The translations under genes were made by a program, and so were the position numbers. DNA of 61,779 nucleotides from Rhodanobacter sp. PCA2 (GTDB taxonomy: Bacteria > Pseudomonadota > Gammaproteobacteria > Xanthomonadales > Rhodanobacteraceae): NCBI RefSeq assembly GCF_013620825.1, contig NZ_NJIC01000019.1, positions 131,334 through 193,112 of the forward strand, written 5' to 3'. Shown piece by piece: positions 32,817 to 52,697 of this stretch. Position 1 is the first letter of the stretch. Each line of letters starts with the position of its first letter. Under the pieces are notes generated by a model. That model searched no databases, was not told the origin of the DNA, and was given only the letters and a program-made list of their open reading frames with translations.

Positions 32817-33350
32817 CTACTCGGCGGGGAGTGGCTCCGGCGGAGGGGAGGGCAAAGCCTCGGTGGTCACCTCCGCCTTCCAGACTTCGGGTTGAAGCGT
32901 CACGGCCTGCGGCCTCGCGGGGGCCAAGGCCCCCACACCCCCAGCCGCGCGCCGCTCGTATTCCTCGTGCCAGAGCCGTGCCTCGGCATAGACGACGGTC
33001 CAGTTCGCCAGCCGCCCAGGCTGGAAGCTGTAGCCGCTGGGACTAATCAGCTCGCCGGTGCGGCTGTTGACGATCCAACCGGCCCAGCGATCATGCAGCG
33101 CGCCCACGTCGCCCAGCCGGTGCAGGCGCAGCAGCCGGACCGCTGACCACGGCACCCGGCAACGGCCAGTGTCCCAATGCTGCACCGTCCGCACCGAGAC
33201 GCCCAGGAACTTGGCGCACGCCTTGAGGCTCAAGAAGCAGCTGCGCCGGAGTTCCCGGAAGCCCTCGGCGGAGACGTACCAGGTGCGGACCCGGCGACGG
33301 CTGGCCCGTGCTTTGGGGAATGTCTGATTAATCGGTTGCCTGCTCGTCAT
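32817..33350 (-). CDS. DUF3653-type phage-associated DNA-binding protein
   Basis: A protein of up to 177 residues. The core WYVSAEGFRELRRSCFLS, CAKFLGVSVRTVQHWDTGRCRVPWSAVRLLRL is a helix-turn-helix-like domain typical of DUF3653/VC1465-type proteins found with filamentous phages and XerCD-dependent elements in Xanthomonadales and Vibrio; GELISPSGYSFQPGRLANW follows. The C-terminal 40 residues are Pro/Ala-rich. The only good start codon (33350) lies inside repeat copy 2, so the first 14 residues are repeat-encoded. This may be a gene whose original start was replaced by the repeat, or a gene no longer translated. Family assignment moderate, activity uncertain. Confidence 0.6.
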   Translation of the reverse strand: MTSRQPINQTFPKARASRRRVRTWYVSAEGFRELRRSCFLSLKACAKFLGVSVRTVQHWDTGRCRVPWSAVRLLRLHRLGDVGALHDRWAGWIVNSRTGELISPSGYSFQPGRLANWTVVYAEARLWHEEYERRAAGGVGALAPARPQAVTLQPEVWKAEVTTEALPSPPPEPLPAE

Positions 33351-33775: not shown

Positions 33776-34558
33776 TCAGGTACGGAGACGTCGGAATCGC
33801 ATGCCTTGCGCCTGGGTTTGCAAATAGCGGCTGCCATGATTCGTGGCAGAGCTGCTCAAATCGAGCAGACAAAGTTCGGTTCCTTCGACTGTCAGCCAAC
33901 CCGCAAGGCTGTACGCGCATCGCCTTTGTGCAGACCAGCCGGTGAGACTCACGCCGTGCAAGGTGGGGGTATTGTTCGACGCCAGTGCGTCGGCATAGCC
34001 CCGAATAGGGCCGGGCTCGGCATCGCCTTCTGTCATGGCGCCCAGGACCTCCCCTTCCTTCGTGACGGATAATTCAAGTCGCAACGAATCGTCGTGCGTA
34101 GAAACCCATGCTCCGCCAAGCAAGTGCGTCGGGTCGATGGCTGTCCCGTTTGCGGACAACGAAAGAAGGGGAAGGGATTCTCCCGTTGGTTCGTATTGCA
34201 ACTTGTCCAGGTGAAACCCGGTACCTTTCGGTGCAGGGGCATGAGTCGAGACGACCAGGTTGTGCATCAACAGCAGGCGAGGGCCTTGCGGCGTGTGCAG
34301 AAGCTGCCCGCTCAGCCCGGACACCCATTGCGAACCGGGTTCTTCATCATCGCCATCAATGGCTCGCCAACTGATGCCCAGGGACAGTGCACGGGCATGG
34401 TTACCGTCGATCGCGGCGGGCTCGATGAACCCGGTGACGTGATAATCGCCGCTGGATCCGGTCGTGGAACGGTAAAGCCCCCGCACACATCCATCGGTGC
34501 CTTCGCGAAGGCGCATGAGCGACCCGTATTCGTTTCGCCACGTGGTTTCACTGACCAT
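33776..34558 (-). CDS. Cytoplasmic protein with two avidin-like domains
   Basis: A 260-residue protein without signal peptide. Residues 5-122 follow the streptavidin pattern: TTWRNEYGS, DGCVRGLYRSTTGSSGDYHVTG, LGISWRA, SQWVSG and a late LVVSTHAPA. Equivalents of the biotin-binding Asn23, Ser27, Tyr43, Ser45 and Trp79 are Asn9, Ser13, Tyr29, Ser31 and Trp64; the Trp108 and Trp120 positions are not Trp. Residues 147-258 repeat the pattern more weakly (GGAWVSTHDDS, EGEVLGAM, SLTGW, YSLAGWL). The start overlaps the hyuB stop by one base, so it is translated with the hydantoinase. Known avidins are mostly secreted single-domain biotin binders; here a cyclic-ureide ligand related to the hydantoinase substrate is possible. 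Avidin fold: fairly sure. Ligand: inference. Confidence 0.72.
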   Translation of the reverse strand: MVSETTWRNEYGSLMRLREGTDGCVRGLYRSTTGSSGDYHVTGFIEPAAIDGNHARALSLGISWRAIDGDDEEPGSQWVSGLSGQLLHTPQGPRLLLMHNLVVSTHAPAPKGTGFHLDKLQYEPTGESLPLLSLSANGTAIDPTHLLGGAWVSTHDDSLRLELSVTKEGEVLGAMTEGDAEPGPIRGYADALASNNTPTLHGVSLTGWSAQRRCAYSLAGWLTVEGTELCLLDLSSSATNHGSRYLQTQAQGMRFRRLRT

Positions 34559-36228
34559 CAGCCTGCCTCGTGGCGGTAGCCGTAAACATCAGCCGCCCGG
34601 CGAGCATCGAGGTAACCGTTCTTGAGGTCGGAGACGATGGCTTCTCGCGATCGCTTGGCTGGGTCGCCATAGCCGCCGCCGTTGGCCGTGACGATACGAA
34701 TGACGTCGTCTCGATTGACCTCCAGCGAGGTGACTACGGCGAAGTCCCGGGTCTCACCGTTGGCCCGGATCACGCGCACGTAGTTCGAGGAACCTTCCCT
34801 GCCGCCTTGCAAGCCCCAGGGATGATGCTTGTTGCGCGAGTACGAAGCCGTCAGGAAGCAACCGTCGCTGCGTACCCTGTAATCGAGCACGATGCCCTTG
34901 CCGCCGCGGTGCTGACCTTCACCGCCCGGCTCGTCGTTGAGGGCGAGTCGATCCACGTAGAGGCCGTAGCGCGTTTCGGCGATTTCTGCGGGGCAGTTGA
35001 AAGTTTCCCCATGCATGGCACTGAACATGGCGCTGTTGCCGTCGGCATCGTGGCTGCCGCCCCAGCCGCCGATTTCAGGCTCGACGATGGTGAAATGCCG
35101 TCCCGTGTCCGGATGCACGCCACCGATGACGGTGCCGCAGATACTTGAAAAGTGGCCGCTTGGCAGCGTGTCGCCCATATGGGGAGCGAGACAGCGCCAC
35201 AGCAGGTCATACAAACGCATGCCTACCTCGTAGTAGATGCCGATGGCCGCCGGTGGCTTGGCATGAAACACGGTACCTTCCCGGGTTTTCAACTGGATCG
35301 GACGGAACGTGCCGCCATTGGTAACGCCATACGGATCGGTGATGTTCTTGAACATCATCTGGACGGATACCAGGCTGTCATCCTGGCTGCAGTTGTTCGG
35401 CCCGTTGTCTTGCGGCGGGTTGTCGGTCAGGTCGACGACAAAGCTGTCATCCCTGATGTCGATGGTGGCCTTGTAGGTCATGCCATTGTCTTGCGCCTCT
35501 TCGATGGTGAAGCGCCCCTTCGGCAGGGCTTTCAGACCTTCCAGGGCGACCTGTTCGCCGTAATCCATGAAGTGCTTCATTGCTTCGAGGAAAATGGGCT
35601 TGCCGTACTTCGCAACCAGTTCCGCGATGCGCCGCGCGCCGATGCGTGCGGCGGCCACGCCGGCCCATAGGTCCCCTTCGAGAAAGTCGGGCAGGCGGCT
35701 GTTGGTCTTGATGATGTCGAATACGGGGCGAATCAGATCCCCTCGTTCGAATAGCTTCACGGCGGGAAGGCGAATGCCTTCCTGAAAGATCTCTTTCGCG
35801 TCCGGCGAGAACGAGCCGGGCGCCGCACCACCGACATCGTTCCAGTGCGCGATGTTGGCGGCCCAGGCGATCAGCTCGTCGTCGGCGAAAACCGGCATCA
35901 GCAACACGTTGTCGTTCAGGTGGGTAACACCGCCGAAATAGGGATCGTTGGTGATGAAGATGTCGCCGGGAAGAATGTCGCCGGGCTTGGCGTGCAGCGC
36001 CAGGATGCTTTTGACGGCCTTGTCGAGAACGCCCACGAAACCGGGGATGCCCGCACCGCTGGAGGCCAGATTGCCTTGGCCATCGGTGATGCAAGTGCCC
36101 ATGTCCAGCACTTCATAGATGATGGCGCTCATCGCCGTCTTGCGCATCGCGGCGAACATTTCGTCGGAGATGGCTTGCAGCGAGCTCTGAATGATTTCCA
36201 AAGTGATTGTGTCGGCGGCCCGGTTCAT
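34558..36228 (-). CDS. hyuB: Hydantoinase B/oxoprolinase family subunit
   Basis: A 556-residue subunit of an ATP-dependent N-methylhydantoinase/5-oxoprolinase-type enzyme. Family blocks seen are LEIIQSSLQAISDEMFAAMRKTA at the start, ITNDPYFGGVTHLNDN, GGWGGSHDADGNSA and a glycine-rich C-terminal region (TANGGGYGDP). It overlaps hyuA by four bases and the avidin-like gene by one. The ring-opening substrate (hydantoin, N-methylhydantoin, 5-oxoproline or similar) cannot be told from sequence; the nearby NCS1 permease favours a nucleobase-like or hydantoin-like cyclic ureide. Confidence 0.93.
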   Translation of the reverse strand: MNRAADTITLEIIQSSLQAISDEMFAAMRKTAMSAIIYEVLDMGTCITDGQGNLASSGAGIPGFVGVLDKAVKSILALHAKPGDILPGDIFITNDPYFGGVTHLNDNVLLMPVFADDELIAWAANIAHWNDVGGAAPGSFSPDAKEIFQEGIRLPAVKLFERGDLIRPVFDIIKTNSRLPDFLEGDLWAGVAAARIGARRIAELVAKYGKPIFLEAMKHFMDYGEQVALEGLKALPKGRFTIEEAQDNGMTYKATIDIRDDSFVVDLTDNPPQDNGPNNCSQDDSLVSVQMMFKNITDPYGVTNGGTFRPIQLKTREGTVFHAKPPAAIGIYYEVGMRLYDLLWRCLAPHMGDTLPSGHFSSICGTVIGGVHPDTGRHFTIVEPEIGGWGGSHDADGNSAMFSAMHGETFNCPAEIAETRYGLYVDRLALNDEPGGEGQHRGGKGIVLDYRVRSDGCFLTASYSRNKHHPWGLQGGREGSSNYVRVIRANGETRDFAVVTSLEVNRDDVIRIVTANGGGYGDPAKRSREAIVSDLKNGYLDARRAADVYGYRHEAG

Positions 36229-38312
36229 GACGCAGCTCCCTCGATGTCGATGTGCACATTGCCGTAATCGTCGATGGACACACGGTTGCCCGGATGGATC
36301 AAGATGGTGGTGCCGGGGGTCTCGATCACCGCAGGGCCATCGAAACGCATGTCCGGTTCGAGCAGCAGACCGTCGTAGATGCCCGCATCGTGGACGCCTT
36401 GCGTGTCGAAATCGACCCTGCGTGTTCCCTTCAGCGCATCGGTCAACGATCGGCCCGTGGCAGGTAGCCGCCCCGGCGTCAGCTTGCCGATGTCGGCGAA
36501 GGCGACGATATGCAGGCCGACGAACTCGATGGCGGCGTTCAGTTGATAGGTGTACTCGTGTTCGTAAGCGACATGGAATGCCTTGCTGATCTCGTCGACG
36601 CCGGCGGCATCGAAAGCCCTTGCGGGCATGATCACTTCGACGTGGTGCTCCTGATTCTCGTAGCGGAGCTTGGCGTAGCGCAGGAACCGTACTTGGGTTG
36701 GCGGGACGCCTTCCTTGCCGAGTTGTTCGAGTGCGGCCTTCTCGTTTTCCACGACCAACCGGTCGATCGTGGGGGCGTGCGACGCATCCAGGCTTTCCAG
36801 ATGGCTGATGAAGTAATCGCGGCGCAGCCCGCTCATCAGCATGCCCCACGCGCTGAACACATCCGCTGCTCGGGGAATGACGACCTTGCGTATGTTGAGT
36901 TCGGCCGCCAGCGCTGCCGCATGCATCGGGCCGCCGCCGCCGAATGCCACCAGCACGAAATCGCGCGGATCGTGGCCGCGATTCATCGAAACGAGCTTCA
37001 GCGCGTTCACCATGTTGTTGTTGGCGATGCGCACGATGCCCCGTGCCACTTCAACCGGGGTCATTTGCAGGCCGGCCGCCAGAGGGGCCAGCGCGCGATC
37101 CACGGCGGCGAGGTCGGCGGCAATGGCGCCGCCACAGAAGAATTCCGGATTGATCCGGCGCAGCAGTACGTTGGCATCCGTGGTCGTCGCCTGGGTGCCG
37201 CCATTGCCGTAGGCCGCCGGACCCGGCACCGAACCCGCCGACTTCGGCCCCACGTGCATTTTGCCGAAGGAATCGAGCCAGGCGATGCTGCCGCCGCCGT
37301 TGCCGATTTCGACCAGATCGACCACGGGAACCATGATCGGATAGCCGGCCGATTGCCCGCTGCGTTCGATCCAGTAGTCGGTCATGATCTTGACCTGGCC
37401 ATTCTCGATGAGGCTGCATTTGGCCGTCGTGCCGCCGATGTCCAATGCAAGTACATTGGGTTCGCCGATCAGCAACCCCAGTTCCGCCGCGCCCCAGAAG
37501 CCGCTGGCCGGCCCGGACTCGACCATCGTGATGGGAGTCTCCATGGCGTGCTCGATGGAGTCCACGCCGCAGTTGGACTGCATGACGTAGAGCTGCCCGC
37601 CGAAACCGTCGGCGAGCAATCCGCTTTTCAGACCGGTCAGGTAGCGGGCGGCCGTCGGCTGCACGTAGGCGGAAAAGACCGTCGTGCTGGTACGTTCGTA
37701 TTCGCGCCACTCGCGGGTGATCTGGTGCGAGGCCACCAATGGCACTTCCGGCCAGAGCCGACGCACCTCTTCGAGTACACGCTGTTCGTGGACAGGGTTG
37801 GCATAGGCATGCAACAGGCACACGGCAATGGCTTGCACCTGTTCCTTGCGAAAGTCGTCGAGGATCCCGGGCAGGACACTGAGATCGAGCGGCGCGCGTT
37901 CGTGTCCGTCAGGCGCCAGTCGTCCCGGGATTTCCCGGCGCAGATGGCGGGGTACGAAGGGCTCGGGTTTGCGGTAGGAAAGATTGAAGAAATCCGGCCT
38001 GTTGCCGCGTGCGATTTCGAGCGAATCGCGGAAGCCTTCGGTCGTGACAAGGGCGACCTTCTCGCCTTTTCGTTCAGTCAGCGCGTTGATGACAACGGTC
38101 GTTCCGTGCGCATGAAAGACCACGTCCGGCATGGAAACGTTGGCCTTCCGCATCACATTGAGTACGCCGCGTTCGAATTGAGGCGGAGTGGTATCGACCT
38201 TGGCGGTCACGATGTGCTGCGCGCCACTGGCTTCGTCGGTATAGAAACAGACCAGATCAGTGAATGTGCCACCGATGTCGGTTGCAACGCGCAGGGATGC
38301 TTTCGAACTCAT
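36225..38312 (-). CDS. hyuA: Hydantoinase A/oxoprolinase family subunit
   Basis: A 695-residue ATP-binding subunit with the actin-like phosphate motif TDIGGTFTDLV at residues 11-21, a second LALDIGGTTAKCSL motif, and HGTTVVINALTERKG and FGGGGPMHAAALA, all typical of hydantoinase A. The C-terminal domain (from about residue 520) is complete. The start lies 115 bases after the TonB receptor stop on the same strand, so all four genes down to the avidin-like protein probably form one transcript. Confidence 0.94.
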   Translation of the reverse strand: MSSKASLRVATDIGGTFTDLVCFYTDEASGAQHIVTAKVDTTPPQFERGVLNVMRKANVSMPDVVFHAHGTTVVINALTERKGEKVALVTTEGFRDSLEIARGNRPDFFNLSYRKPEPFVPRHLRREIPGRLAPDGHERAPLDLSVLPGILDDFRKEQVQAIAVCLLHAYANPVHEQRVLEEVRRLWPEVPLVASHQITREWREYERTSTTVFSAYVQPTAARYLTGLKSGLLADGFGGQLYVMQSNCGVDSIEHAMETPITMVESGPASGFWGAAELGLLIGEPNVLALDIGGTTAKCSLIENGQVKIMTDYWIERSGQSAGYPIMVPVVDLVEIGNGGGSIAWLDSFGKMHVGPKSAGSVPGPAAYGNGGTQATTTDANVLLRRINPEFFCGGAIAADLAAVDRALAPLAAGLQMTPVEVARGIVRIANNNMVNALKLVSMNRGHDPRDFVLVAFGGGGPMHAAALAAELNIRKVVIPRAADVFSAWGMLMSGLRRDYFISHLESLDASHAPTIDRLVVENEKAALEQLGKEGVPPTQVRFLRYAKLRYENQEHHVEVIMPARAFDAAGVDEISKAFHVAYEHEYTYQLNAAIEFVGLHIVAFADIGKLTPGRLPATGRSLTDALKGTRRVDFDTQGVHDAGIYDGLLLEPDMRFDGPAVIETPGTTILIHPGNRVSIDDYGNVHIDIEGAAS

Positions 38313-38427: not shown

Positions 38428-40734
38428 TCAGTACAGGTTGTAGCGGAAGTCGATGCCGTAGCTGCGTGGCTCGGCGATCTGCGTGAAGCCACCCAGTACG
38501 TACTCGGCGTTGTAGCGTGAGTTGGTGGCGTTCTTTGCCCAGAGCGTCGCGGTCCATTTGCCATCCCAGCTTTCCACGCCGAGTCGCAGGTTGAGCAGGT
38601 CGACAGCCTTGCGTTCGGTGGTATTCCCCGGATCCCAGAACTGGGGACCGATGACTTCGTAGTCCAGGCGCAACAGGCCATTGAGGCGGCTGCCCAATGC
38701 TGGCGAGTATTGGAAGCCGATGTTCGAGGTGTAGCGCGGGATGTAGGGGGCTGCATTGCCCACGTTGCTCGGATCGAGCCCGAACTTTTTGATCTGACTA
38801 TGCGTATAGCCATAAGCGCCATACACGGTCAGGTCGTCGAGGACGCGGAACTTGGCATCCAGTTCGTAGCCACGCAGATCCACCTTGTCGATGTTGGTCA
38901 GCACCTGCGCGCCAAGCGCCCCGACGAAGACGAAATACAGTTGATTGCGATCCCGGGTGTCAAACATGCTGCCGTTGATTTGCAGCCGATTGTCGTCCAG
39001 CGAGCTCTTGAACCCCAGTTCGGCACTCTTGGCCGTTTCAGGCTGGTAAAGATCGCTGACGCCGATCAACCCCACGCTTGCCGCATCCGCACCGGTACCG
39101 TTCTGGTTGAACCCGCCGCTGCGGAACCCCACACCCCAGCTTCCGTAGAAGGTGAAGTCCGTGTTCGCCTTGTAGGTAAGGGTGAATTTGGGTTGCGACT
39201 TGCTGAATGTGCCATGGCGGACCTGCCCGGCAAAGGGGTCGAATTGGGGCATGGAGACATCGCGTTGGGTGAGCTGGAAGCGGTCGTAGCGCCACGCCAG
39301 ATCCGCTTCCAGCTTCGGGGTGATGTCGTAGGCCACCTGTCCGAAAATCGACGAGTTGTTCTCGCTGGCGCGATCGGCGAGGAAGGATGAAGTCGGATTC
39401 CGGCTGTTGGCGGGTGCCGGCGTCTTCTTGACGCGAATGATGCCGCGGCCAAGATCCAGGCCGATGGTGTTGGACAGATAGCTGTCCGTATGAAGGAACG
39501 AAGTTCCCGCGATCCAGCGCAGGGGCTCGTCCGAGGGCGAAGTGAATCGCAGTTCGACCTGCCTGGCGTTGGTGTCCAGGTACTGGGCTTGTGTGCCATC
39601 AGTTCCCGGGCCCAACGGTGAATTCGCGGAAATGGCCGGCGTGTAGGGGAAGTTGTCCCCGTCGGAATACTCGTTGATGTGATCCAGTGCAGCGATGGCA
39701 GTCAAGGTACCCGCGCTGGTCTGGTAGTCGCCCTTGATCGAGAAATGATCGATGGTCCGGATGTCATAGCCCTTGTTGTTGGCCGTGATCGGAATCGAGG
39801 TGTTGTTGACGTCGTCGACGCCGTAGAGCGGCTGGTACACGTAGTTCAGGGAGCCGCCGATCGTGCGGGAGCTGCTGGCCTGCGTATCGAGCGTGAAGTG
39901 GTCGGTGACATCGGCCAGCACGCGCAGGCGAAGTCCCCGGTTACGTGCGTTGTCCACGGGCCTGTGCAGGTAATCATTCTGGATCAGGCCGCCGAGGAAG
40001 TTGTCGATGCCCGACAGCAGATAGCGCACCTTGCCGTTGCCGATCGGGCCGCTGAAGCTGAAAGCCCCGTCTCGATAGTGGCCGTTGCCAACACCAACCT
40101 GGATCCAGCCGGCAGGAGTATCGGAAGGCAGCTTGGTATTGATCAGAATCGCGCCGCCCAGTGCGTTGCGGCCGTAGAGCGCGCCTTGTGGGCCTTTCAG
40201 CACCTCGATGCTGTCGAGGTCGTAAAGGTCCTGGTTGAACTGGTTGGGGCTGACTTGTTGCACGCCGTCCACCACGGTAGCCACCGGCGGGTCGCCGTTG
40301 CGTACCTGGGTGATGCCGCGAATCGTGAGAAAGTCGGTGCCCGCGTTCTGCGATTGCACCATGCTCACGTTGGGCGTCAGCTGCACGAAATCCGCTGGCG
40401 ATTGAATGCCCGCATCCTCGATCTGCTGATCGGTGAACGCCGTGATCGCAATCGGTACGTCCTTGATGGATTCGGAGCGCTGGCGCGCCGTCACGGTGAC
40501 CTCGGTGAGGGTCACGGCATTTTTTTTCTTCGATGCCTTGGTCTGCGTGCCTTGTGCGGGAGGGGGCGGCGCCTGGTTCGCAGGCGTGTCCGAGTTCGTC
40601 GCTGTTTCCTGTGCGGAGGCGAAGAACGGCATGCCATACAATCCCACGGCAACGCTGACACTCAGGCAGGTCAGCTTTCGCCAGGGCGATGCGGGCGAGC
40701 ATCGGGAGCCATCAGGCCGGGCCAATCGGGTCAT
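38428..40734 (-). CDS. TonB-dependent receptor of the hydantoinase locus
   Basis: A 768-residue outer-membrane receptor. The signal peptide is about residues 1-41 (ending FFASAQ), followed by a Pro/Lys-rich linker, the TonB box region LTEVTVTARQRSES, the plug (IKDVPIAITAFTDQQIEDAG...VLKGPQGALYGRNALGG) and a barrel ending in FRYNLY. It belongs to the large group used for diverse organic substrates. A GGAGG site precedes the start. The operator-like element at 40850-40869 lies upstream, and hyuA, hyuB and the avidin-like gene follow, so it probably imports the locus substrate. Confidence 0.93.
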   Translation of the reverse strand: MTRLARPDGSRCSPASPWRKLTCLSVSVAVGLYGMPFFASAQETATNSDTPANQAPPPPAQGTQTKASKKKNAVTLTEVTVTARQRSESIKDVPIAITAFTDQQIEDAGIQSPADFVQLTPNVSMVQSQNAGTDFLTIRGITQVRNGDPPVATVVDGVQQVSPNQFNQDLYDLDSIEVLKGPQGALYGRNALGGAILINTKLPSDTPAGWIQVGVGNGHYRDGAFSFSGPIGNGKVRYLLSGIDNFLGGLIQNDYLHRPVDNARNRGLRLRVLADVTDHFTLDTQASSSRTIGGSLNYVYQPLYGVDDVNNTSIPITANNKGYDIRTIDHFSIKGDYQTSAGTLTAIAALDHINEYSDGDNFPYTPAISANSPLGPGTDGTQAQYLDTNARQVELRFTSPSDEPLRWIAGTSFLHTDSYLSNTIGLDLGRGIIRVKKTPAPANSRNPTSSFLADRASENNSSIFGQVAYDITPKLEADLAWRYDRFQLTQRDVSMPQFDPFAGQVRHGTFSKSQPKFTLTYKANTDFTFYGSWGVGFRSGGFNQNGTGADAASVGLIGVSDLYQPETAKSAELGFKSSLDDNRLQINGSMFDTRDRNQLYFVFVGALGAQVLTNIDKVDLRGYELDAKFRVLDDLTVYGAYGYTHSQIKKFGLDPSNVGNAAPYIPRYTSNIGFQYSPALGSRLNGLLRLDYEVIGPQFWDPGNTTERKAVDLLNLRLGVESWDGKWTATLWAKNATNSRYNAEYVLGGFTQIAEPRSYGIDFRYNLY

Positions 40735-40949: not shown

Positions 40950-43637
40950 TCAATCGGCGTCCGGCTGCAACGACAATCGCCGCGCTTCGGACAGGGCGGC
41001 GGTACGCGAATCGACGTTGAGCTTGCGGTAGATCTGCTTCAGATGGAATTTCACCGTGTTTTCCGAGAGGCCAAGCATGCGGCCGATCGATTTGTTCGAA
41101 TGCCCGCGGTAAAGCTCTCGAAGCACCTCGAACTCGCGGTGGCTCAGGTGTCCTGTCTCGGCGTCTTGATCGGCGTGCAGCTCGCGTTGCACTCGAAGGA
41201 GAAATTCGCGTCGCGGGTCGATGAGCGGCAGGTTCCTCGTATCGCCGAGCAAGTCCCGAATCAAGGATTCGATGGCCGGGCCAAGCTGGAAAAACATGCG
41301 AGTGGCCTGGGCTTCAGCCGCGAAACCGAGGGCTTCGATAAAACGCCTCATTGCCTGCGGCAACTCTCCGCGTCCCTTCAGGGCCAGTGCCGACAGCGCA
41401 TGGAACATGGCGGCATGGGCGCGTCGCCCGTGTGCGGTGCACGAGGCCAGTTCGCTTTCGGCCCATTGCAAGGCCCGCGAGTACTGCGCACTGGCCAACG
41501 CGCGCCTGATCCTGGCAATGGCCCATGCGTGGCGCAAACGCCAATCGCTGCCCTGCTTGTCCGGGAAGTGTCCTTCCGGCCACGTCTTGGCGCAAGTCGA
41601 GGACGGTCCATCATGCTCGGCAACTTCGTATTCGTATTGCCAGGCGTCGACCAGGTACTCCAGTTCGCGCAAATCACGCAACTTCGCGTAGGTTCGTACG
41701 TGCTGAAGCTTGGCGATGCCCGCCTTGTGGCCCTGTTCCGCGAATGCGATGCGCACGGATGTTTCGCACGCCAGTGCGTAGATGTCGAACCAGCCATCCT
41801 GGTGTTCGATCACATCCAGTGAGGCATCGATCAACGCACTGGCTTCGGTCAGGCGATTGCGGTCGTAGAGCAGCTTGGCCATCAGGCTGCCGGCCACGGC
41901 CTTGAGCATGCTGTCCTTGCCGAAGTTGGCCTCGGCCATTTCCAGCGATTCGGCGAAAACGCTTTCGGCGCGCTTCCAGTCGCCCCGGTAATAAAAGCTC
42001 TGGCCAAGGTGGAACAGGCAATAGGTGATGCCGACAATGCAATTGCCTGCACGCATGTCCGAGATGCCATCCTGGCTGTAGCGCTCGCCCAACGAAAATT
42101 CGGCGAGGGCAATGGCGCAGACGGCGCATACCGCATAAGCCGTGGCACGGGTCACACGGTCGCTGGCGTCCAGAGAGCGGGTAAAACAGTCGAGCTTTTC
42201 GATCTGCGCGCGGTTGTCCGATTCATCGCAATAGCCTTGCCGCAAGGCATTGATGATGGTGTAGGCGTTCCGGGTGCTGCTCTCGTCCGAAACCATGGTT
42301 GCGCGCGCAAGGTCCAGGCAGCGGTGTACCTCCGACCACTCACCGCGCTTGATGCACAGATACGCCTTGACGATAAGCAGCAAGGGGTACTGGTCGATGG
42401 TCGATGGAGGAAACAGTTGCAGCAAGTTGCTCACGAAGCCGATGCCGTGACTCATGATCAACTGCCAGCTACCCGCTTGATCGATCAACTCAACGGCGGA
42501 CGCCAGGCTTTTGGCATGGACGGCTTGCCTCACCGCTTCAAGCAGATCGCCCTGGCGAAGGAACCACTGTGACGCACGAAGCCGAAGCGGCGACATGCGT
42601 TCGGGTCTGTGCATGCGTAGATGGTTTCGCAGGAAATCCCCGAACAGGGGATGGAACCGGAACCATTTGCGCTTGTGATCGAGCGGGATGAGCAGGGCAT
42701 CCAAGTGGTTTAGCTGGTTCAGCAGCCTGGCGCTGTCATTGCACTCGCGCACCTCGTCCAGCAATGCGGCGCAAAACCGCTCGAACACGGACGCATCCGT
42801 CAGGAAGTCCTGCAGCGCTTGCGGAAGATCCTGCAAGACCTGCTCGCTCAAGTAATTGGCGACGTCCACATGACGACCGCTGAAATCGTTGAGCGAGTGT
42901 TCGCGGTCGGCCTGGTGCTGCATCCAGATGCGCGCCAGTTGCGAGACGACAGCCCAGCCTTCGCTGCGTGCGTACAGGGAAGCATGTTCATCGGCCGACA
43001 GCAGTCCTGCAAACAAGACGGCCGACTCGTCCAGCGACAGCATCAGATCCGACGCACTGATGGTCTGGACTACGCCACGTGCAATGAGTGTGGATAGGTG
43101 AATCGAAGGCGGATCGCGCGAACTGATCGCCAGGTGCAGGTTGTGCGCGCCATGACGCAGCATGGTCTCGATGATTTCGTTGGTTCCGTTGGACTGCGCC
43201 AGTTGGTAATCGTCAAGAATCAGGATGACGGCCGATTTGCTGGTGACGATCTGGCCCATCAGGCTGGAAAGCACCGCCTTGGCAGAGGCTTCCAGCAAGC
43301 CGTTTTCGGCGATGGATTCCAGTTCCCCGACATCCAGCCCGGCGCGTTGCAGGGAAAGGATCATGTCGGCCAGGAACCGGGCCGGTTCGACGCCATCCTC
43401 GCTGAGCGTGAGCCAAGCCGCGACCACATCGCGTTGAAGGTTCAGTTGCTCGTGCCACTGGGTCAGCAGGGTGGTTTTGCCGAAACCGGGCGGCGATATA
43501 ACGAGCGTGAGGGCATATTCGCGCCAGGCTTGAAGGCGATCGAGCAGTGCCAGGCGGGGAGTGAGGGCCACCCTCTGGCTGGGCGGCTCGAATTTGCCGA
43601 TCGAAAGAATGCTTGTTGTCGGCATGGGTGACTTCAT
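40950..43637 (-). CDS. MalT-type (LAL) LuxR-family transcription activator
   Basis: An 895-residue STAND ATPase regulator: Walker A SPPGFGKTT at about residues 48-56, a Walker B-type VILILDDYQLA, a long helical-repeat middle (about 350-800) that senses the inducer in MalT-like proteins, and a C-terminal LuxR helix-turn-helix (LSHREFEVLRELYRGHSNKSIG, LSENTVKFHLKQIYRKL). The ATG at 43637 is decided by the strong GGAGGGGGGAAGG before it. It sits between the TonB receptor and the divergent permease, whose promoters share an element, so it is presumably the local activator. Inducer unknown. Confidence 0.92.
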   Translation of the reverse strand: MKSPMPTTSILSIGKFEPPSQRVALTPRLALLDRLQAWREYALTLVISPPGFGKTTLLTQWHEQLNLQRDVVAAWLTLSEDGVEPARFLADMILSLQRAGLDVGELESIAENGLLEASAKAVLSSLMGQIVTSKSAVILILDDYQLAQSNGTNEIIETMLRHGAHNLHLAISSRDPPSIHLSTLIARGVVQTISASDLMLSLDESAVLFAGLLSADEHASLYARSEGWAVVSQLARIWMQHQADREHSLNDFSGRHVDVANYLSEQVLQDLPQALQDFLTDASVFERFCAALLDEVRECNDSARLLNQLNHLDALLIPLDHKRKWFRFHPLFGDFLRNHLRMHRPERMSPLRLRASQWFLRQGDLLEAVRQAVHAKSLASAVELIDQAGSWQLIMSHGIGFVSNLLQLFPPSTIDQYPLLLIVKAYLCIKRGEWSEVHRCLDLARATMVSDESSTRNAYTIINALRQGYCDESDNRAQIEKLDCFTRSLDASDRVTRATAYAVCAVCAIALAEFSLGERYSQDGISDMRAGNCIVGITYCLFHLGQSFYYRGDWKRAESVFAESLEMAEANFGKDSMLKAVAGSLMAKLLYDRNRLTEASALIDASLDVIEHQDGWFDIYALACETSVRIAFAEQGHKAGIAKLQHVRTYAKLRDLRELEYLVDAWQYEYEVAEHDGPSSTCAKTWPEGHFPDKQGSDWRLRHAWAIARIRRALASAQYSRALQWAESELASCTAHGRRAHAAMFHALSALALKGRGELPQAMRRFIEALGFAAEAQATRMFFQLGPAIESLIRDLLGDTRNLPLIDPRREFLLRVQRELHADQDAETGHLSHREFEVLRELYRGHSNKSIGRMLGLSENTVKFHLKQIYRKLNVDSRTAALSEARRLSLQPDAD

Positions 43638-43727
43638 GACCTTCCCCCCTCCTACAGACATATAGGCGCAACGTTTATGTAACACCTGGTCAAGGTCGAA
43701 ACAACTGGAAAGGGCACTGCATGTACC

Positions 43728-45288: not shown

Positions 45289-46761
45289 TCAACGGTTTCG
45301 TCGGTAAACGCGTATGGCGTCACGAAGCGCGCCCACCGCCGGGCTTTGGAAAGTGGCAGGGATGTTGAAACGCATATAGGAGCGAGCGGCTTCGGTGAAG
45401 GTGAAAAATATTCCCGGGGCCATGAGGTAACCCGCGTCGAGCATGATTTTTGCCATGGCCGTGGCATCCACACCATCGCCAAGCGAACCCCACAGGTACA
45501 TGCCCGCCGCCGGGGGAGAGTCGAATGTGCATCCGGCGCCGACGAGCTGCGCCATCGCCTGCCCCCTGATATCGAGAAGCCGGGCACGCAAGGACTCGCA
45601 ATGGTGTCGATATTTTCCCTGCGAAAGTATCTGGTGGATGACACGTTCGCTCAGCGAAGTGCTGCTGATCGGCCCGGCGGACTTGTAGAGCGCGATGCGC
45701 TCGATGTGCCCGGGGCTGGCGGCAATGAAGCCGACGCGCAGGCCGGGGGCCACCGTCTTCGAGAAACTGCCTATATGGATCACGCGCTTCAGCTGGTCCA
45801 GGGTCGCCAGTCGGGCGGCAAGGTTGGCTTCCACGGGGGAAAGGAGGTCGCCATACGTGTCGTCGTCGATGACGATGAAGTCGAACTCGTCCGCCAGCTT
45901 CAGTATCTGGAATGCCTTGTGCGGGGAAAGGTTGGTCGAGGTGGGGTTCTGCAGTATCGAACTGCATAGAAAGGCCCGTGGTCTGTGCTTGCTGCATATC
46001 GCACGCATGGCCTCGATGTCCGGGCCGTCGCTTTCGCGGGCGACCCGGGCGATCTCCAGGCCACTGGCCAGCGCCCGCTGGATATGCATGGGAGGCGCCG
46101 GGTCCTCGACCAGCACATAGTTGCGGGCGCTATTGACGTGCGACCACAGCACCAGATGGAGGGCATCCGCTGCACCGGCCGTGGTGACGATTTGTTCAAC
46201 CTGGGTGTGGATACCCTGTTCGGCCAGCTTGACCTGCAATTGCTGCCGCAACGGCAGGTAGCCCCGCGGTGATTCGTATTCGGCCAGGGCGCGGGAAGGT
46301 ATGCGAGTGAGGCTGCGCAGGGCGCTGGACAAGGTGGCCCGATCCATCCATGCCTCTGGCAAGAAGCCGTAGCCCGGCCTTCGTTCATAGGGCAAATCCG
46401 ACCAGAGCAATTTCCTCCAGTCGTATTCGTCATCCGTCTGCTGCGCCCAGTGGGAGGCAGAGGGATGGTTGCCTGCGGACGATCCCGCCTTGACATAGAA
46501 GCCCGATCCGCGACGTGGCTCGACATAGCCGTGTGCCACCAACTTGTCGTAGGCGCGATGGGCCGTTTCATTGCTGACCTGATGGTCGATGGCCAACTGT
46601 CGGACCGACGGAAGGCGGCTGCTGGGTGGCAGCTTGCCGCTCTGTATTTGCTGCTGGATCAGCGTGAAGATCCTGTCCGTCAGCGGGACGGCCGGGCGAT
46701 TGCCGTTCTCGCCTCGAGCCATAGGCGTGCGGTCGGATACGTTGTTCCGGCTTTTTCTCAT
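45289..46761 (-). CDS. MocR-type GntR regulator with aminotransferase-like domain
   Basis: A 490-residue MocR/PdxR-family regulator. The N-terminal winged helix (LTDRIFTLIQQQIQSGKLPPSSRLPSVRQL) is followed by a class I aminotransferase-like domain binding PLP, with the Schiff-base lysine in HIGSFSKTVAPGLRVGF and the PLP-Asp motif VIDDDTYGDL. These proteins sense PLP and an amino compound and usually regulate the divergent gene. Here that gene is an STN-domain TonB receptor 319 bases away, and a pair of direct repeats lies in the gap. The effector is unknown. Confidence 0.93.
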   Translation of the reverse strand: MRKSRNNVSDRTPMARGENGNRPAVPLTDRIFTLIQQQIQSGKLPPSSRLPSVRQLAIDHQVSNETAHRAYDKLVAHGYVEPRRGSGFYVKAGSSAGNHPSASHWAQQTDDEYDWRKLLWSDLPYERRPGYGFLPEAWMDRATLSSALRSLTRIPSRALAEYESPRGYLPLRQQLQVKLAEQGIHTQVEQIVTTAGAADALHLVLWSHVNSARNYVLVEDPAPPMHIQRALASGLEIARVARESDGPDIEAMRAICSKHRPRAFLCSSILQNPTSTNLSPHKAFQILKLADEFDFIVIDDDTYGDLLSPVEANLAARLATLDQLKRVIHIGSFSKTVAPGLRVGFIAASPGHIERIALYKSAGPISSTSLSERVIHQILSQGKYRHHCESLRARLLDIRGQAMAQLVGAGCTFDSPPAAGMYLWGSLGDGVDATAMAKIMLDAGYLMAPGIFFTFTEAARSYMRFNIPATFQSPAVGALRDAIRVYRRNR

Positions 46762-47080
46762 GGCTGCTCGATGTTGTCTGGAAAGAGCTGGCGATGCATG
46801 AAATTGTCTTGGTCAGTGCTCGAAAGTGTCATGGTCGATGCATCAAGACAGTGTTGTCAAATTTTTGCCACAGTGTACGGGTTGAAGCAAAAATGAACTG
46901 CTAGCTTGGCGATGCCTGCGGTGGAGGCCTGCGCAGACAGGTCCCGCCGATTGTCATGCCGCTCGCGGAGGGCGTACCCGCATGGCGCCGGGCATCGATG
47001 GTCTCGGCAAGAACCGGGTCGCGGTTCGATTCTCCGGTACAGCCAGGCTCCTACAAGAACCGAGCAAGGGGAGGGGATTT
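46762..47080. other. Divergent promoter region of the MocR regulator and TonB receptor
   Basis: The 319-base gap contains the direct repeats at 46805-46841 and an AT-rich run (46850-46870) but no gene. The right part (46980-47080) is open in the receptor frame, but the receptor's signal peptide and GGGGAGGGG ribosome-binding site place the start at 47081. A T-arm-like sequence near 47020 lacks the rest of a tRNA. Confidence 0.6.
46805..46841. promoter_or_regulatory. Direct repeats, probable MocR binding site
   Basis: TGTCTTGGTCAGTGC (46805-46819) and TGTCATGGTCGATGC (46827-46841) agree in 12 of 15 positions and start 22 bases apart, two helical turns. MocR-type regulators such as GabR and PdxR bind direct repeats in divergent promoters, so these are good candidates for autoregulation and control of the receptor operon. 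They lie 44-80 bases upstream of the regulator start. Confidence 0.5.
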
Positions 47081-49489
47081 ATGTCCAATCGCAAAGCAAT
47101 ACACTGGCAAAAACATGTCCGGCATTCCGCGGTCACGCTGTGCGGTGCCACGTTGCTCCTCAGCATGATGGCCCCGGCGCCGACGCAGGCTGCCGCTGCA
47201 GAGGCCCCGAGTTCCACCGTGGGGCACGATGACGTCAAGCTCCGTTTTTCATTGCCCGCCGAGCCGCTCGCCACCACCTTGCGCGCCATCAGCCAGCAGA
47301 GCGGGCGGCCCGTCCAGTTCAATCCCGGCGATGTGGAGGGTATCCAGGCGCCGCCTCTGCATGGCAACTACACCGTGGCGGCGGCATTGCAGGAAGCGGT
47401 TGCCGGCAGTCGGGTCACCGTGACCTCGGGGTCGAACGGCGGCTGGGTGGTGTTTGTCCCGCAGGCCCAGAACCTGGGCGTCGTTACGGTAACTGCGAGT
47501 TTGAACGAGGCCGAAACAGGATTTCAGGCTACGCGCTCCGACACCGCCACGCGCAGTGGTGCCGACCTGATGGACACGCCGGAATCGATGACGATCATCA
47601 CCAGTGACGTCATGAGGAGCCAGCAGGCTCTCAGCATCCAGGATGTCCTGCAGGATGTGAGCGGGGTGCAGACGTCGGCCGCAGCCTCTCAGGGGCCCGC
47701 AAGCGCGAGTATTCGTGGACTGACCGTGACCAGCCTGTCCAATGGCATCGCCAGCCCGTTCGCGACCAACACGAATATCGTGGGTGTGGAACGCATGGAG
47801 GTCCTGAAGGGGCCGCAGGCAATTCTCTCGGGTGGCGATTCGCTGGGCGGCGCCGTCAACATCGTGACGAAAAAACCGTCCGCGGATCCCGTCGCGAATC
47901 TTTCGTTCCAGGATGGGACCTTTGGCGACAAGACCGCCAGCGCGGACTTTTCGGATGCGCTGAGCAGCGACAAGAAGTTGAGTGGCCGTGTCCTGGGTTC
48001 ATGGACGCGCGCAGCATCCAGCGATGCAGGCTTCGATGGCCGACGCGAAAATTACTTCATGCCCCAGATCCGCTGGAAGGACGACCGCACCGATTTCATC
48101 CTTGGGGCTTCCTACGACGACGAGTTCGATCCGATCGGGCGCTATACGTTCGCGCTGCAAAACTCGATAAGCCCCATTCCGTCCATGCTTCTGGGAAACA
48201 AGAGCAACGGAATCGAAGTCAAGACAAGGTCGCTGTTTTACAGTCTGGAGCACAAGTTCACCCCTTGGCTCAGTGTTGTCAGCCGAGTGAGCCGTGATCT
48301 GACCAAGCAGGATCTGAGTGTTTGGCAGGCTCAGTTTCCGCTGGACATACCCAGCATGACGCTGGCCTTCCTGCCCACGAATTCCAGCAGCCGGTATGGC
48401 GTCACGAGCAGCGACAACTACTTGCGCTTCACCTTCCGAACGGGGGCTTTGCAACATGTGTTGTCGACGGGTGTAAACACAACAGCCATGAGCTACACCC
48501 AGAGCGAATACCAGTTTCCGTCCTTCCTGGCCGGGCAACCATATGCCCCACAGCAGATCGACTTCCCACATCCGGTGCGCGATGCGGCAAGTCTTTACAG
48601 CATCAATCAAATCCAGCAGAAGCAGTTGGGATGGTACGCCCAGGATCTCGTCACCTGGGGCAATTTTCACGCCATGCTGAATTTCCGGCGTACGTACTAT
48701 CAGCAGGGACCTGTGCAAATCAATTTTGTCCAATTCAACTCGATCAGAAATACGCCGCAAAAATCCATCTACAAGAACACGCCAGGAGCTGGGCTCGTTT
48801 ACAACGTCACCCCGAACGTGTCGGTGTATGGCGCCTGGTCCCAGGGTTTTGCCCCGAACTTCACGACGACGCAATTGTGCGGTGGCGGGTTGGCCTCTCC
48901 TCCGAGAACCTCGCGAAACCAGGAAGTCGGCGTCAAATTGTCGTCATCGGACGGACTGTTTTCGTTGACCTCAAGCGCCTTCAATCTCACCCAGCAGAAC
49001 GTTCTGAAGTACAACAACGCCCTGCGCTGCAACCAGCTCATTCTGGGGCAACGCACGCGAGGCTTCGAGGTGGACGCGCAAGGGCAACTGGCCAAAGGCT
49101 GGAACCTGATTGCCAACTTCACGCATAGCAATTACACCAATGTGGGAGTACCGGGACAGATCATTGCCGGCGAGCCGCGAAACCATTTCAACTTGTGGAC
49201 GACCTACGATTTTCCGGATGGTCCTCTCCATGGGTTTGGAATCGGCGGCGGCATTACCGCCTACAGCCGCAGCTATACGGATTACGTGCGCGACTCCCCC
49301 GAGGAGCCGGGTGGTGCCCGTGTGGACCTGAGCGCGTACTACCGGTTGATGCAGCATTGGTCGTTCACGCTGGGTGTCAAGAACGTGTTCGATCGGACGC
49401 TCTACGGTGTGGCGACCACACCGATCTACATCCCGGTGAATACTGGTCGCACCATGATGTTCACGGTCAAGTACGACTTCCTGAAGTGA
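47081..49489 (+). CDS. TonB-dependent receptor with STN signalling domain
   Basis: An 802-residue siderophore-class receptor. After the signal peptide (about residues 1-39) comes an STN domain (FSLPAEPLATTLRAISQQSG ... GNYTVAAALQEAVAGS), then the TonB box and plug (DTPESMTIITSDVMRSQQALS ... RMEVLKGPQAILSGGDSLGG) and a barrel ending VKYDFLK. STN domains normally talk to a FecR-type anti-sigma factor, but no fecI/fecR pair is in the window; a MocR regulator is adjacent instead. It heads a co-oriented series with an ABC transporter, thioredoxin and peptidases, so its ligand is probably a peptide-like compound. The start at 47081 has a GGGGAGGGG site. Confidence 0.92.
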   Translation: MSNRKAIHWQKHVRHSAVTLCGATLLLSMMAPAPTQAAAAEAPSSTVGHDDVKLRFSLPAEPLATTLRAISQQSGRPVQFNPGDVEGIQAPPLHGNYTVAAALQEAVAGSRVTVTSGSNGGWVVFVPQAQNLGVVTVTASLNEAETGFQATRSDTATRSGADLMDTPESMTIITSDVMRSQQALSIQDVLQDVSGVQTSAAASQGPASASIRGLTVTSLSNGIASPFATNTNIVGVERMEVLKGPQAILSGGDSLGGAVNIVTKKPSADPVANLSFQDGTFGDKTASADFSDALSSDKKLSGRVLGSWTRAASSDAGFDGRRENYFMPQIRWKDDRTDFILGASYDDEFDPIGRYTFALQNSISPIPSMLLGNKSNGIEVKTRSLFYSLEHKFTPWLSVVSRVSRDLTKQDLSVWQAQFPLDIPSMTLAFLPTNSSSRYGVTSSDNYLRFTFRTGALQHVLSTGVNTTAMSYTQSEYQFPSFLAGQPYAPQQIDFPHPVRDAASLYSINQIQQKQLGWYAQDLVTWGNFHAMLNFRRTYYQQGPVQINFVQFNSIRNTPQKSIYKNTPGAGLVYNVTPNVSVYGAWSQGFAPNFTTTQLCGGGLASPPRTSRNQEVGVKLSSSDGLFSLTSSAFNLTQQNVLKYNNALRCNQLILGQRTRGFEVDAQGQLAKGWNLIANFTHSNYTNVGVPGQIIAGEPRNHFNLWTTYDFPDGPLHGFGIGGGITAYSRSYTDYVRDSPEEPGGARVDLSAYYRLMQHWSFTLGVKNVFDRTLYGVATTPIYIPVNTGRTMMFTVKYDFLK

Positions 49490-49500
49490 CCTGAAGTGAC
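49481..49500 (+). repeat. Tandem duplication CTGAAGTGAC x2 across the receptor stop codon
   Basis: The decamer CTGAAGTGAC occurs twice in direct succession; the first copy contains the TGA stop of the TonB receptor. It looks like a simple replication-slippage duplication and has no evident function. Confidence 0.8.
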
Positions 49501-49551
49501 CCTTGTCCTGGCCCAGGTGAAGCGTGTGGCGGCCGCCAAAGAGCTGCCGCC

Positions 49552-51309
49552 ATGCGCAAACATGTGGAAACCCGATGCATGAGTAACGACGCTGGCGGCC
49601 ACCGCCCTCGACTGTTCCAGCTGATCTACCCCTACTGGGTATCCAACAGGAGCTGGAAATCCTGGCTGCTCGTCGCCTGTCTGCTGGCCTACTCGTTTGG
49701 CGGCGTCTATCTGGCCGTGTGGGCGAATCGCCTTACCGGCGAAGTCGTCGACGCCATGGTGAAACGCGACTGGGAGCAACTGTGGCCCGTGTTGCTCACG
49801 ACGGTCGGCGTGGGTGTTGCGGGGGTGGTGGCGACGTTGACGAATTACGTTGCGTCGCAGCTGTTGAATCTCGAGTGGCGGGCCTGGATGACCGACCGCT
49901 ACCTGAACGCCTGGGCGGAACATGGTGCCTACTACGAAATCGAGCGGGAGGGCTTGCTGACCAATGCGGATCAGCGCCTCTCCCAGGATATCCAGATGTT
50001 CATCCAGGATACCTTGACGCTTTCGTTTGGCGTGATCCATGTCGTTGTCACGATAATCTCGTTCACCGTGGTGCTTTGGCAACTCTCGGGCACATTGTCG
50101 TTCACCGTGCACGGCTGGCATGTATCCATCCCCGGGTACATGGTCTACATAGCGTTCCTGTACCAGATCATCTCGTTCACGATTACGCACTACAGCGGCC
50201 GTGCGTTGATCCGGTTGCTGTCGCACAAGCAGACGGTGGAGGCAAACTTCCGCTATCTGGGCATGCAGTTGCGGGAAAACTCCGAGCAAATCGCCTTCTA
50301 TCGCGGCGGCGAGCGGGAACGCCAGCAACTGCGGGGGCACTTCGGCGACGTTCTCCACAACTGGAAAGACATCATCTTTTGCACCGGCCGGATGATGTTT
50401 TTCCGCGACACCTACGTGCAGGCCGTAGGGCTGGTGGTGCCGACCTTGTCCGCACTGCCGCGCTACCTGATCGGCGCCATCACGCTGGGGGACGTCACGC
50501 GCATCACCGGTGCGTTCAACAGTTTGACGAGCGCGCTGTCTTTCTTCACGCAGGCCTACACCACGTTCAGCGAGTGGCTGGCGCTGGGGCATCGGCTTCA
50601 GGACTTCTCGTGGGCGCTTTCCAGGGCGGAACACCTTCCTCGCAACATCGAGGTGCGTCGACATCCCGGCAGCGAAATCGAAACCAGCCCGGTCGTGCTG
50701 GCGCTTCCCGATGGCGAGCTGATGGCCAAGGTGCCCTCGTTGCGTATCAAGCAGGGCGAGCGATGGCTGATCCGGGGCAGGTCGGGCGTCGGCAAGAGTA
50801 CCTTTCTCCGGGCCATCGCCGGCATGTGGCCGTATGGCTCCGGCACGGTGAGCCTGCCCGGAGTGGCGTCGCTGATGTTCCTGCCCCAGCGGAGCTATAT
50901 CCCGTACGGGAAGCTGAAAGCGGCTCTGTGTTACCCGTCCGAATCGGACCGTTTTTCCGATGAGGAATGCCGCCACGCCCTCCAGGAATGCCTGCTTGGC
51001 CATTATGCAGGAGTCCTCGATGTGGAGGACCGGTGGCAGCAGAAGTTGTCCGGCGGGGAGCAGCAACGCCTGGCGTTCGCCAGAGTCATTCTCCATCGGC
51101 CGGCCTTCGTGTTCCTCGACGAGGCCACCAGCGCGCTGGATGGAGAGTCTGAAAGCCGGTTGTACTCGCTGCTCATCGAGCGCCTGCCAAACAGTGCGGT
51201 GATCAGCGTCGCTCATCGCGAGGCGCTTGAAACCTTCCATGACCATGTGCTGGTCATCCAGCGACCGGACGACACGGCCTCGTCGCCGTATTCAACTGCC
51301 ACGGCTTGA
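49552..51309 (+). CDS. SbmA/YddA-type ABC transporter (fused permease-ATPase)
   Basis: A 585-residue protein: an N-terminal transmembrane domain of about six helices (to residue 330) with the family motif EIEREGLLTNADQRLSQDIQMF, then an ATPase domain with Walker A GRSGVGKST (about 409-417), signature LSGGEQQRLAFARV and Walker B FVFLDEATSALD. This group (ABCD/SbmA-like) includes importers and exporters of peptides and cobalamin. It follows the TonB receptor by 62 bases and precedes thioredoxin by 67, suggesting it moves the receptor's substrate across the inner membrane. Starts at 49552 or 49579 are both possible. Direction of transport is inferred. Confidence 0.88.
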   Translation: MRKHVETRCMSNDAGGHRPRLFQLIYPYWVSNRSWKSWLLVACLLAYSFGGVYLAVWANRLTGEVVDAMVKRDWEQLWPVLLTTVGVGVAGVVATLTNYVASQLLNLEWRAWMTDRYLNAWAEHGAYYEIEREGLLTNADQRLSQDIQMFIQDTLTLSFGVIHVVVTIISFTVVLWQLSGTLSFTVHGWHVSIPGYMVYIAFLYQIISFTITHYSGRALIRLLSHKQTVEANFRYLGMQLRENSEQIAFYRGGERERQQLRGHFGDVLHNWKDIIFCTGRMMFFRDTYVQAVGLVVPTLSALPRYLIGAITLGDVTRITGAFNSLTSALSFFTQAYTTFSEWLALGHRLQDFSWALSRAEHLPRNIEVRRHPGSEIETSPVVLALPDGELMAKVPSLRIKQGERWLIRGRSGVGKSTFLRAIAGMWPYGSGTVSLPGVASLMFLPQRSYIPYGKLKAALCYPSESDRFSDEECRHALQECLLGHYAGVLDVEDRWQQKLSGGEQQRLAFARVILHRPAFVFLDEATSALDGESESRLYSLLIERLPNSAVISVAHREALETFHDHVLVIQRPDDTASSPYSTATA

Positions 51310-51376
51310 GCCCATGCAGCGACCCGCTGGTCCAGTTGCTGCGGGCGTCACCCCAAGAACCACAAGGAATCGCGAC

Positions 51377-51709: not shown

Positions 51710-51710
51710 A

Positions 51711-52604: not shown

Positions 52605-52697
52605 CCCCGGTTGCAAAGAGCGACAGCGAACACGGAAGCGCCGCCGGCGCGCCGTGATGGCGGGATTGGCGTGAATCTGGCGGAGATAGACGTGGAC

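Follow-up and report, generated by a model that had tools for sequence, protein, structure and literature searches.

A tandem avidin-fold protein in a hydantoinase gene cluster

What might an avidin-fold protein contribute to a gene cluster that encodes a ring-opening enzyme? This question is raised by a 61,779-nucleotide stretch of DNA from Rhodanobacter sp. PCA2 (contig NZ_NJIC01000019.1, positions 131,334 to 193,112; hereafter, the window), in which a gene encoding a 260-residue protein with two avidin-like domains (a tandem avidin) immediately follows hyuA and hyuB, encoding the two subunits of a predicted ATP-dependent hydantoinase/oxoprolinase. The answer favored here, to which a probability of roughly 45% is assigned, is that this protein serves as an intracellular binder, with one site per chain, of the cyclic ureide or lactam handled by the pathway, acting as a carrier or buffer for HyuAB. 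From the observed genes, their linkage, co-occurrence and conservation, and from modeled folds, we infer the class of ligand, closure of the pocket and the role as carrier.

Prediction of two avidin barrels

The tandem avidin gene, identified from its open reading frame (ORF) and Pfam, spans positions 33776..34558 on the minus strand. Domain 1 (residues 6-127; 34178..34543, minus strand) is matched by the Pfam Avidin family PF01382 over residues 5-89 with 30.4 bits, relative to a cut-off of 24, and a phmmer comparison of this domain with streptavidin chains gave a best E value of 1.9e-5. Among the relatives scanned with PF01382, those of genomes G1087 (35.4) and G1191 (31.1) passed, that of G838 (23.9) fell narrowly below the cut-off and that of G901 gave no match. 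Domain 2 (residues 143-260; 33779..34132, minus strand) was not matched by Pfam, nor did a ten-row profile of this domain retrieve any avidin from the sequences of the PDB, the single match (E 0.055) being a hydrolase.

When profiles built from ten proteins were compared using hhalign, those of domain 1 and domain 2 aligned in register over 105 columns (probability 91.9, E 6.9e-7). AlphaFold2 modeled domain 2 alone as eight strands and one helix, with a predicted local distance difference test score (pLDDT) of 78.8. In a Foldseek search of the PDB with this model, all 50 matches listed, of 447 with E <=10, were avidins or streptavidins (probability 1.00, TM ~0.6-0.7), with a best E value of only 3e-3 and a root-mean-square deviation of ~5 A. 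The full-length model presented 8 + 8 strands yet was weak (pLDDT 66.2, with blocks of domain 1 at 43-71); avidins accounted for 46 of the 50 Foldseek matches listed. Profile comparison, AlphaFold2 and Foldseek accordingly support domain 2 as an avidin barrel, such that an eight-stranded barrel is predicted in each half of the protein, at low confidence for domain 1. Structure prediction and fold search had been set beforehand as the test that could refute the two streptavidin-like domains proposed in an initial annotation of this DNA; strand numbers and fold matches that were mostly or wholly avidins agree with that proposal.

No signal peptide is apparent, the first-strand tryptophan already being residue 7 and the highest 12-residue mean hydropathy starting within the first 40 residues being 0.74, as the initial annotation had also concluded. 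Its broader statement that avidins are secreted or periplasmic does not hold for all members, since signal peptides were reported in about 50% of the avidins surveyed by Laitinen et al. (2021; PMC8033661).

As a separate observation, domain 1 of the relatives from G156 (L008:7297-8160) and Rudaea sp. 3F27F6 (G209; L009:6991-7851) contains an insert of ~24 residues that repeats an 'LxGIYxS' strand beside the original, resembling a duplicated hairpin.

One conserved pocket in the tandem avidins

Residues of the pocket were compared across 26 intact tandem avidins, namely, 10 encoded within hyuA-hyuB clusters (hyu-linked) and 16 others. The proteins of G1402 (gene interrupted where its contig ends), G1423 (decayed, with an internal stop), and G141 and G142 (domain 2 not found) were excluded. 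In the alignment used to place streptavidin positions, the avidin ORFs of L012, L013 and L016 served as canonical comparators, and a wrong frame of L017 was also included.

In streptavidin, Asn23, Ser27 and Tyr43 hold the ureido oxygen of biotin, while Ser45 and Asp128 hold the ureido hydrogens (PMC4888747). In domain 1, the positions of Asn23, Ser27, Tyr43, Ser45, Trp79 and Thr90 (here Ser) are identical in 26/26 proteins, corresponding to N9, S13, Y29, S31, W64 and S80 in the window protein. Were invariant positions randomly placed, the chance of all four ureido positions falling among the 18 invariants in 120 would be 4e-4, an estimate that is weakened if, as may be the case, ureido-type residues are generally conserved in avidins. 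D118 is present in 23/26 proteins (10/10 hyu-linked and 13/16 others) and aligns two residues away from Asp128; a simple equation of the two was dropped because of this offset. Of the four pocket tryptophans, 79, 92, 108 and 120, only Trp79 is retained. The Trp108 position holds His in 10 proteins and Asn in 16, that of Trp92 holds Leu, Met, Tyr or Phe, and the aligned Trp120 position, which is less surely placed, is never Trp among the 26.

None of the four ureido contacts is conserved in domain 2, where each aligned position matches in <=4/26 proteins, and 5/118 positions are invariant, as compared to 18/120 in domain 1. With a conserved pocket in domain 1 only, there is probably one binding site per chain and not two. 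Domain 2 appears as a degenerate barrel, albeit one in which position 245 is aromatic in 26/26 proteins (Tyr in 19, Phe in 5 and Trp in 2). In the window protein, the spacing of Y245, T248 and F255 is that of streptavidin Trp120, Thr123 and Phe130. Since Trp120 of streptavidin extends to the biotin of the adjacent subunit (PMC12105034), a fair reading by analogy is that domain 2 might act as a built-in lid over the domain-1 pocket.

In a tree of these proteins, the ten hyu-linked members all lie on one side of a single branch (support 72/89). When at most two residues were allowed on each side, three positions separated the groups perfectly: 82 (Leu/Met in hyu-linked proteins vs Phe/Tyr in the others), 99 (His vs Asn) and 248 (Thr vs Ala/Ser). 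By alignment, positions 82 and 99 are those of Trp92 and Trp108 in the biotin pocket. The less certain Trp120 position is aromatic in none of the 10 hyu-linked proteins and in 13/16 of the others. Such differences would suit a change of ligand accompanying a change of gene company. The initial annotation had suggested a cyclic ureide or biotin-type ligand; the invariant ureido contacts and the separating pocket positions are in keeping with the former, whereas biotin is unlikely to be the main ligand.

Linkage of the tandem avidin to hyuAB

In the window, the ATG of the avidin gene and the TGA of hyuB have one A in common, giving a 1-base overlap (TGATG; GGCTGATGG), as originally annotated together with the correct coordinates of all three genes, while hyuB (34558..36228, minus strand) and hyuA (36225..38312, minus strand) overlap by 4 bases. 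A gene encoding a TonB-dependent receptor (38428..40734, minus strand; PF00593, PF07715) lies upstream of hyuA on the same strand, preceded by one encoding a MalT-like LuxR-family regulator (40950..43685, minus strand; ATPase, TPR and GerE parts according to Pfam and a homologue search). The order of transcription on the minus strand is thus LuxR regulator, TonB-dependent receptor, hyuA, hyuB and tandem avidin.

Tandem avidins were sought in 233 genomes of the same family, in samples of the class (369 genomes), the phylum (398), genus g370 (159) and the family of genome G1010 (48), in a collection of genome contigs (using peptide patterns) and in plasmids; statements on linkage cover the stretches read around each gene. 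A scan of the genome contigs with the window protein alone returned no relatives, and a three-row profile returned two among 60 candidate stretches. A PF01382 screen of the order (398 genomes) gave 11 positives, of which L012, L013 and L016 were used for comparison and G141 and G142 were read further. The class sample gave 2 positives (G000 and G838) and the phylum sample 6; a 30-residue match in G1124, from the phylum sample, was dropped after its stretch, L045, had been listed.

In this manner, ten genomes of Alpha-, Beta- and Gammaproteobacteria were found to contain a tandem avidin gene inside a hyuA-hyuB cluster, namely, that of the window, G156, Rudaea, Cupriavidus pinatubonensis HN-2 (L031), Novosphingobium sp. 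EMRT-2 (on a plasmid; L034) and five members of genus g370, perhaps Pseudomonas (G1087, G1191, G1300, G1308 and G1257). In the three genomes of the window's own family (the window, G156 and Rudaea), hyuB and the avidin gene overlap by 1, 8 and 8 bases, respectively. A LuxR homologue was present in all nine clusters in which the region was reached (cut by the end of the stretch in G1300, G1308 and G1257), the stretch of G1191 stopping short of it. Four of the ten clusters contain a TonB receptor gene and the other six genes for an outer-membrane protein and a major facilitator superfamily (MFS) carrier. Homologues of the window's receptor adjoin hyuAB in G156, Rudaea and Novosphingobium, and also in G017, whose cluster is considered below. 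A racemase homologue occurs in 6/10 clusters (PF01177 in the case of the Novosphingobium protein) and an M24 enzyme in 5/10. In G156, moreover, a cytosine/purine/allantoin-type permease gene (PF02133; L077:4883-6184) and the LuxR gene of the cluster are divergently oriented.

The two gene types also co-occur. In genus g370, this type of HyuB (E up to 1e-100) was detected in 4/149 genomes, the same four in which the tandem avidin was detected among 159, although the two samples were not identical and G1087, the sample centre, had been picked for its avidin; omitting G1087, the chance of such coincidence is ~2e-6, assuming independent genomes, which they are not. Within the window's family, this HyuB type was seen in four genomes, three of which (the window's among them) carry the tandem avidin, and none of the remaining 229 gave a full-length match; without the window genome, the figure becomes 2/3 among 232, with a chance of ~1e-4 under the same, unmet assumption of independence. 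Finally, pairwise identities of HyuB and of the avidin over the ten genomes are correlated (r 0.71, with 0/20000 permutations as high), shared descent of the hosts contributing to this value.

Assignment of HyuA and HyuB

According to Pfam, HyuA (PF05378, PF01968 and PF19278) and HyuB (PF02538, 512 bits) both belong, over their full length, to the ATP-dependent hydantoinase/oxoprolinase family. Motif and ligand positions were set from residues given in PMC8453981 and alignment to 5l9w. The ATP-site motifs DxGGTxTD, DxGGT and GxxPGP (DIGGTFTD, DIGGT and GSVPGP in the window) are intact in 10/10 aligned HyuA proteins, and the Asp-His-Asp-His metal ligands, found also in the window protein, in 11/11 aligned HyuB proteins, G017 being included in both counts. 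The nearest solved relatives by sequence are N-methylhydantoinase 7hk5, and 6yra. Against the NCBIfam caprolactamase equivalogs, the proteins scored 484.7 and 219.3 bits, where the cut-off is 1000; because these scores are so far below it, the substrate of HyuAB is not readable from the family.

Tandem avidins without hyuAB

Linkage to hydantoinase genes, predicted in the initial annotation to be conserved, extends across three proteobacterial classes but is not universal. In the G1010 family, perhaps Marinomonas, 16/48 genomes contain a tandem avidin, with a pepsin-like gene adjoining it in 15 of the 16 (the exception being G1423) and no hyuAB in the 9.7-19 kilobases read around each. PF02538 was absent from the whole genome of G1010, with the other 15 being checked in their stretches. 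The copy in G1423 (G1423:C1:2572098-2572369) has decayed and is interrupted by a stop codon.

A pepsin-like part is, moreover, in frame with the tandem avidin in six genomes, four of them hyu-linked (G1087, G1191, G1300 and G1308). In the other two, G901 and G838, the fusion begins with a hydrophobic, signal-peptide-like N-terminus and HyuB is encoded on a different contig. Both catalytic Asp motifs were present in 17/18 of the pepsins read. Conversely, G017 contains LuxR, HyuA, HyuB, TonB receptor and MFS genes and no tandem avidin. Considered together, the G1010 family, G901, G838 and G017 therefore indicate that the avidin and hyuAB are separable, with pepsin being the other recurrent partner.

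Several minor observations concern these proteases. Genes for pepsin-like A1 proteases are fused at L041, L042, L079 and L080 and adjoin the avidin gene at L043 and L082-L095. G142 encodes a pepsin fused to only one avidin domain, and in G141 a pepsin homologue lies beside the avidin match. Directly after the G901 fusion, an 892-residue AAA/TPR protein is encoded (L044:9591-12269), in which Pfam detected no LuxR-type DNA-binding domain.

Proposed role and alternatives

According to the proposed scheme, a small cyclic compound would be imported via the TonB-dependent receptor, or via the outer-membrane protein and MFS carrier, and would be bound in the cytoplasm by domain 1 of the tandem avidin, whose retained carbonyl/N-H clamp could accommodate the cyclic ureide or lactam of the pathway. 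Domain 2, presumably arising by duplication of one avidin barrel and having lost its own site, would serve as a pseudo-dimer partner, possibly closing the domain-1 pocket via its conserved aromatic residue. The most likely task of the protein would be to keep the substrate in the cytoplasm and pass it to HyuAB, which would open the ring amide or ureide at the expense of ATP; where present, the racemase and M24 enzyme could process the substrate or the product. More tentative is the wider evolutionary proposal that, through duplication and loss of one site, the avidin fold became an intracellular handler of cyclic ureides or lactams, with the ureido clamp holding the compound whose ring is opened by an ATP-dependent enzyme and domain 2 providing the lid. 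A cyclo(X-Pro) diketopiperazine, opened by HyuAB and then processed by an M24 Xaa-Pro enzyme, was set aside as a substrate; although chemically attractive, it rests on the M24 genes of half of the clusters, and passages of a paper on diketopiperazine breakdown (PMC3852281) speak neither for nor against it.

A number of points weigh against this assignment. Since the G017 cluster lacks the avidin, HyuAB can work without it, and in the G1010 family the avidin is found in other company. Gene order varies among the hyu-linked clusters, with the Cupriavidus avidin gene being divergent and lying beyond the regulator gene. Conservation of the ureido contacts is seen as well in the 16 proteins without nearby hyuAB and in avidins generally, and so may be a matter of descent. 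Conservation of Asp128 is uncertain, domain 1 was poorly modeled by AlphaFold2, and the separating residues, found across a single branch, are not independent events and perhaps represent only one.

Among other explanations, it is unlikely that the avidin-fold protein is a ligand-bound sensor that binds an inducer and controls the MalT-like LuxR regulator. Accessory proteins control MalT, and a regulator gene is present wherever the hyu-linked clusters were read far enough, with the avidin gene being divergent from it in Cupriavidus and, in Novosphingobium, having the same orientation and lying 110 bases upstream. In the window, G156 and Rudaea, however, the avidin gene overlaps hyuB at the opposite end of the gene run from the regulator, G017 retains the regulator without the avidin, and the 16 stretches of the G1010 family contain no homologue of the window or Novosphingobium LuxR at E 1e-8. 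Still less probable is a function tied to a pepsin-like aspartic protease, whether as its partner, as its inhibitor or as a domain that captures its substrate, with presence in hyu clusters reflecting later borrowing. The adjoining genes of the G1010 family, the six in-frame fusions and the mostly intact catalytic motifs all favor such a function, as does the finding that a bacterial pepsin, shewasin D, can be cytoplasmic (PMC4814920). Yet the stretches of 6/10 hyu-linked genomes (the window, G156, Rudaea, Cupriavidus, Novosphingobium and G1257) yielded no pepsin homologue, simple inhibition would not call for a ureido clamp, and a 2009 survey held the Marinomonas and Sinorhizobium pepsin homologues to be likely inactive as peptidases (PMC2761423).

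Acetone or acetophenone carboxylase has small extra subunits, and the gene overlaps in the window, G156 and Rudaea, along with the correlated divergence of HyuB and the avidin, could be explained were the tandem avidin a structural third subunit of HyuAB. This is improbable given that neighbor order is not fixed in other clusters, that 4/10 hyu-linked proteins are fused to a pepsin-like part, that 16 genomes have the avidin without nearby hyuAB and that G017 has HyuAB without the avidin. Finally, an ordinary cytoplasmic biotin binder, serving either to store biotin or to degrade it by way of HyuAB cleaving its ureido ring, would be consistent with the invariant ureido contacts and Trp79 and, presumably, with HyuAB chemistry. 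Here, replacement of Trp108 in all 26 proteins, the presence of Leu or Met in place of Trp92 throughout the hyu-linked group of 10, the non-aromatic residues at the unsurely aligned Trp120 position of those 10, and the harm that tight capture of cytoplasmic biotin should cause the cell make this very unlikely; the literature on biotin breakdown, as represented by titles and the beginnings of abstracts, moreover revealed no bacterial gene set. The role of the tandem avidin as a binder of the pathway's cyclic substrate is the reading preferred here.

Relation to known systems

Members of this length have already been placed in an 'Extended clade' of bacterial avidins, bearing a C-terminal extension of ~150 residues in which no domain was found, with some members being fused to a pepsin-like A1 protease (PMC8033661). 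That report names Cupriavidus pinatubonensis, Marinomonas species and, as an outlier, a Rhodanobacter. The window protein has such an extension (residues 128-260), and one hyu-linked relative comes from the named Cupriavidus species; the difference is that the extension is interpreted here as a second, degenerate avidin barrel. The words 'hydantoin', 'TonB', 'LuxR' and 'tandem' occur 0 times in the main text of that report, the part covered here, its supplementary neighborhood table lying outside this check.

While sharing the fold and the Asn23/Ser27/Tyr43/Ser45 contacts of streptavidin and chicken avidin (PMC4888747), the window protein differs in having two domains in one chain with a single conserved pocket, in lacking an apparent signal peptide, in the replacement of Trp92 and Trp108 and in being encoded within a catabolic-type gene cluster. 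Two avidin units per chain are also found in an engineered dual-chain avidin (PMC3105096), which is circularly permuted, whereas the window protein is natural and has lost one site. HyuAB has both subunits, the ATP-site motifs and the metal ligands in common with N-methylhydantoinases (7hk5, 6yra) and caprolactamase CapAB (PMC8453981), yet scores below the caprolactamase cut-offs, and the relevant passages of PMC8453981 mention no avidin partner. A literature search, subscription papers and supplements being outside its scope, returned no paper joining avidin and hydantoinase. Judged by title and the start of the abstract, the matches listed contained nothing relevant on avidin together with a TonB-dependent receptor, LuxR or a gene cluster, and no natural tandem avidin with a hydantoinase. 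In the literature searched, there appears to be no description of the second barrel, of the single-pocket design or of the linkage to hyu genes.

Functions proposed for bacterial avidins include biotin-based defence against competitors or grazers (PMC8033661). If the role suggested here is true, the association of a cytoplasmic avidin having one site with a ring-opening enzyme would provide a specific metabolic function that is open to testing, and an instance in nature of a re-purposed streptavidin pocket. The type of HyuAB seen here is uncharacterised and has a recurring set of partners, and the second barrel is predicted in proteins already in the literature, where it had gone unrecognised.

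Other genes of the window

Downstream of the avidin gene, window positions 32817-33350 encode a DUF3653 'phage protein' that weakly matches a helix-turn-helix. Positions 45289-55508 contain a gene for a MocR-type regulator on the minus strand followed, on the plus strand, by genes for a TonB-dependent receptor, an SbmA/BacA-like ABC protein, a 302-residue protein without a Pfam match and an S9 prolyl oligopeptidase; this region resembles a cluster for the uptake and processing of peptides.

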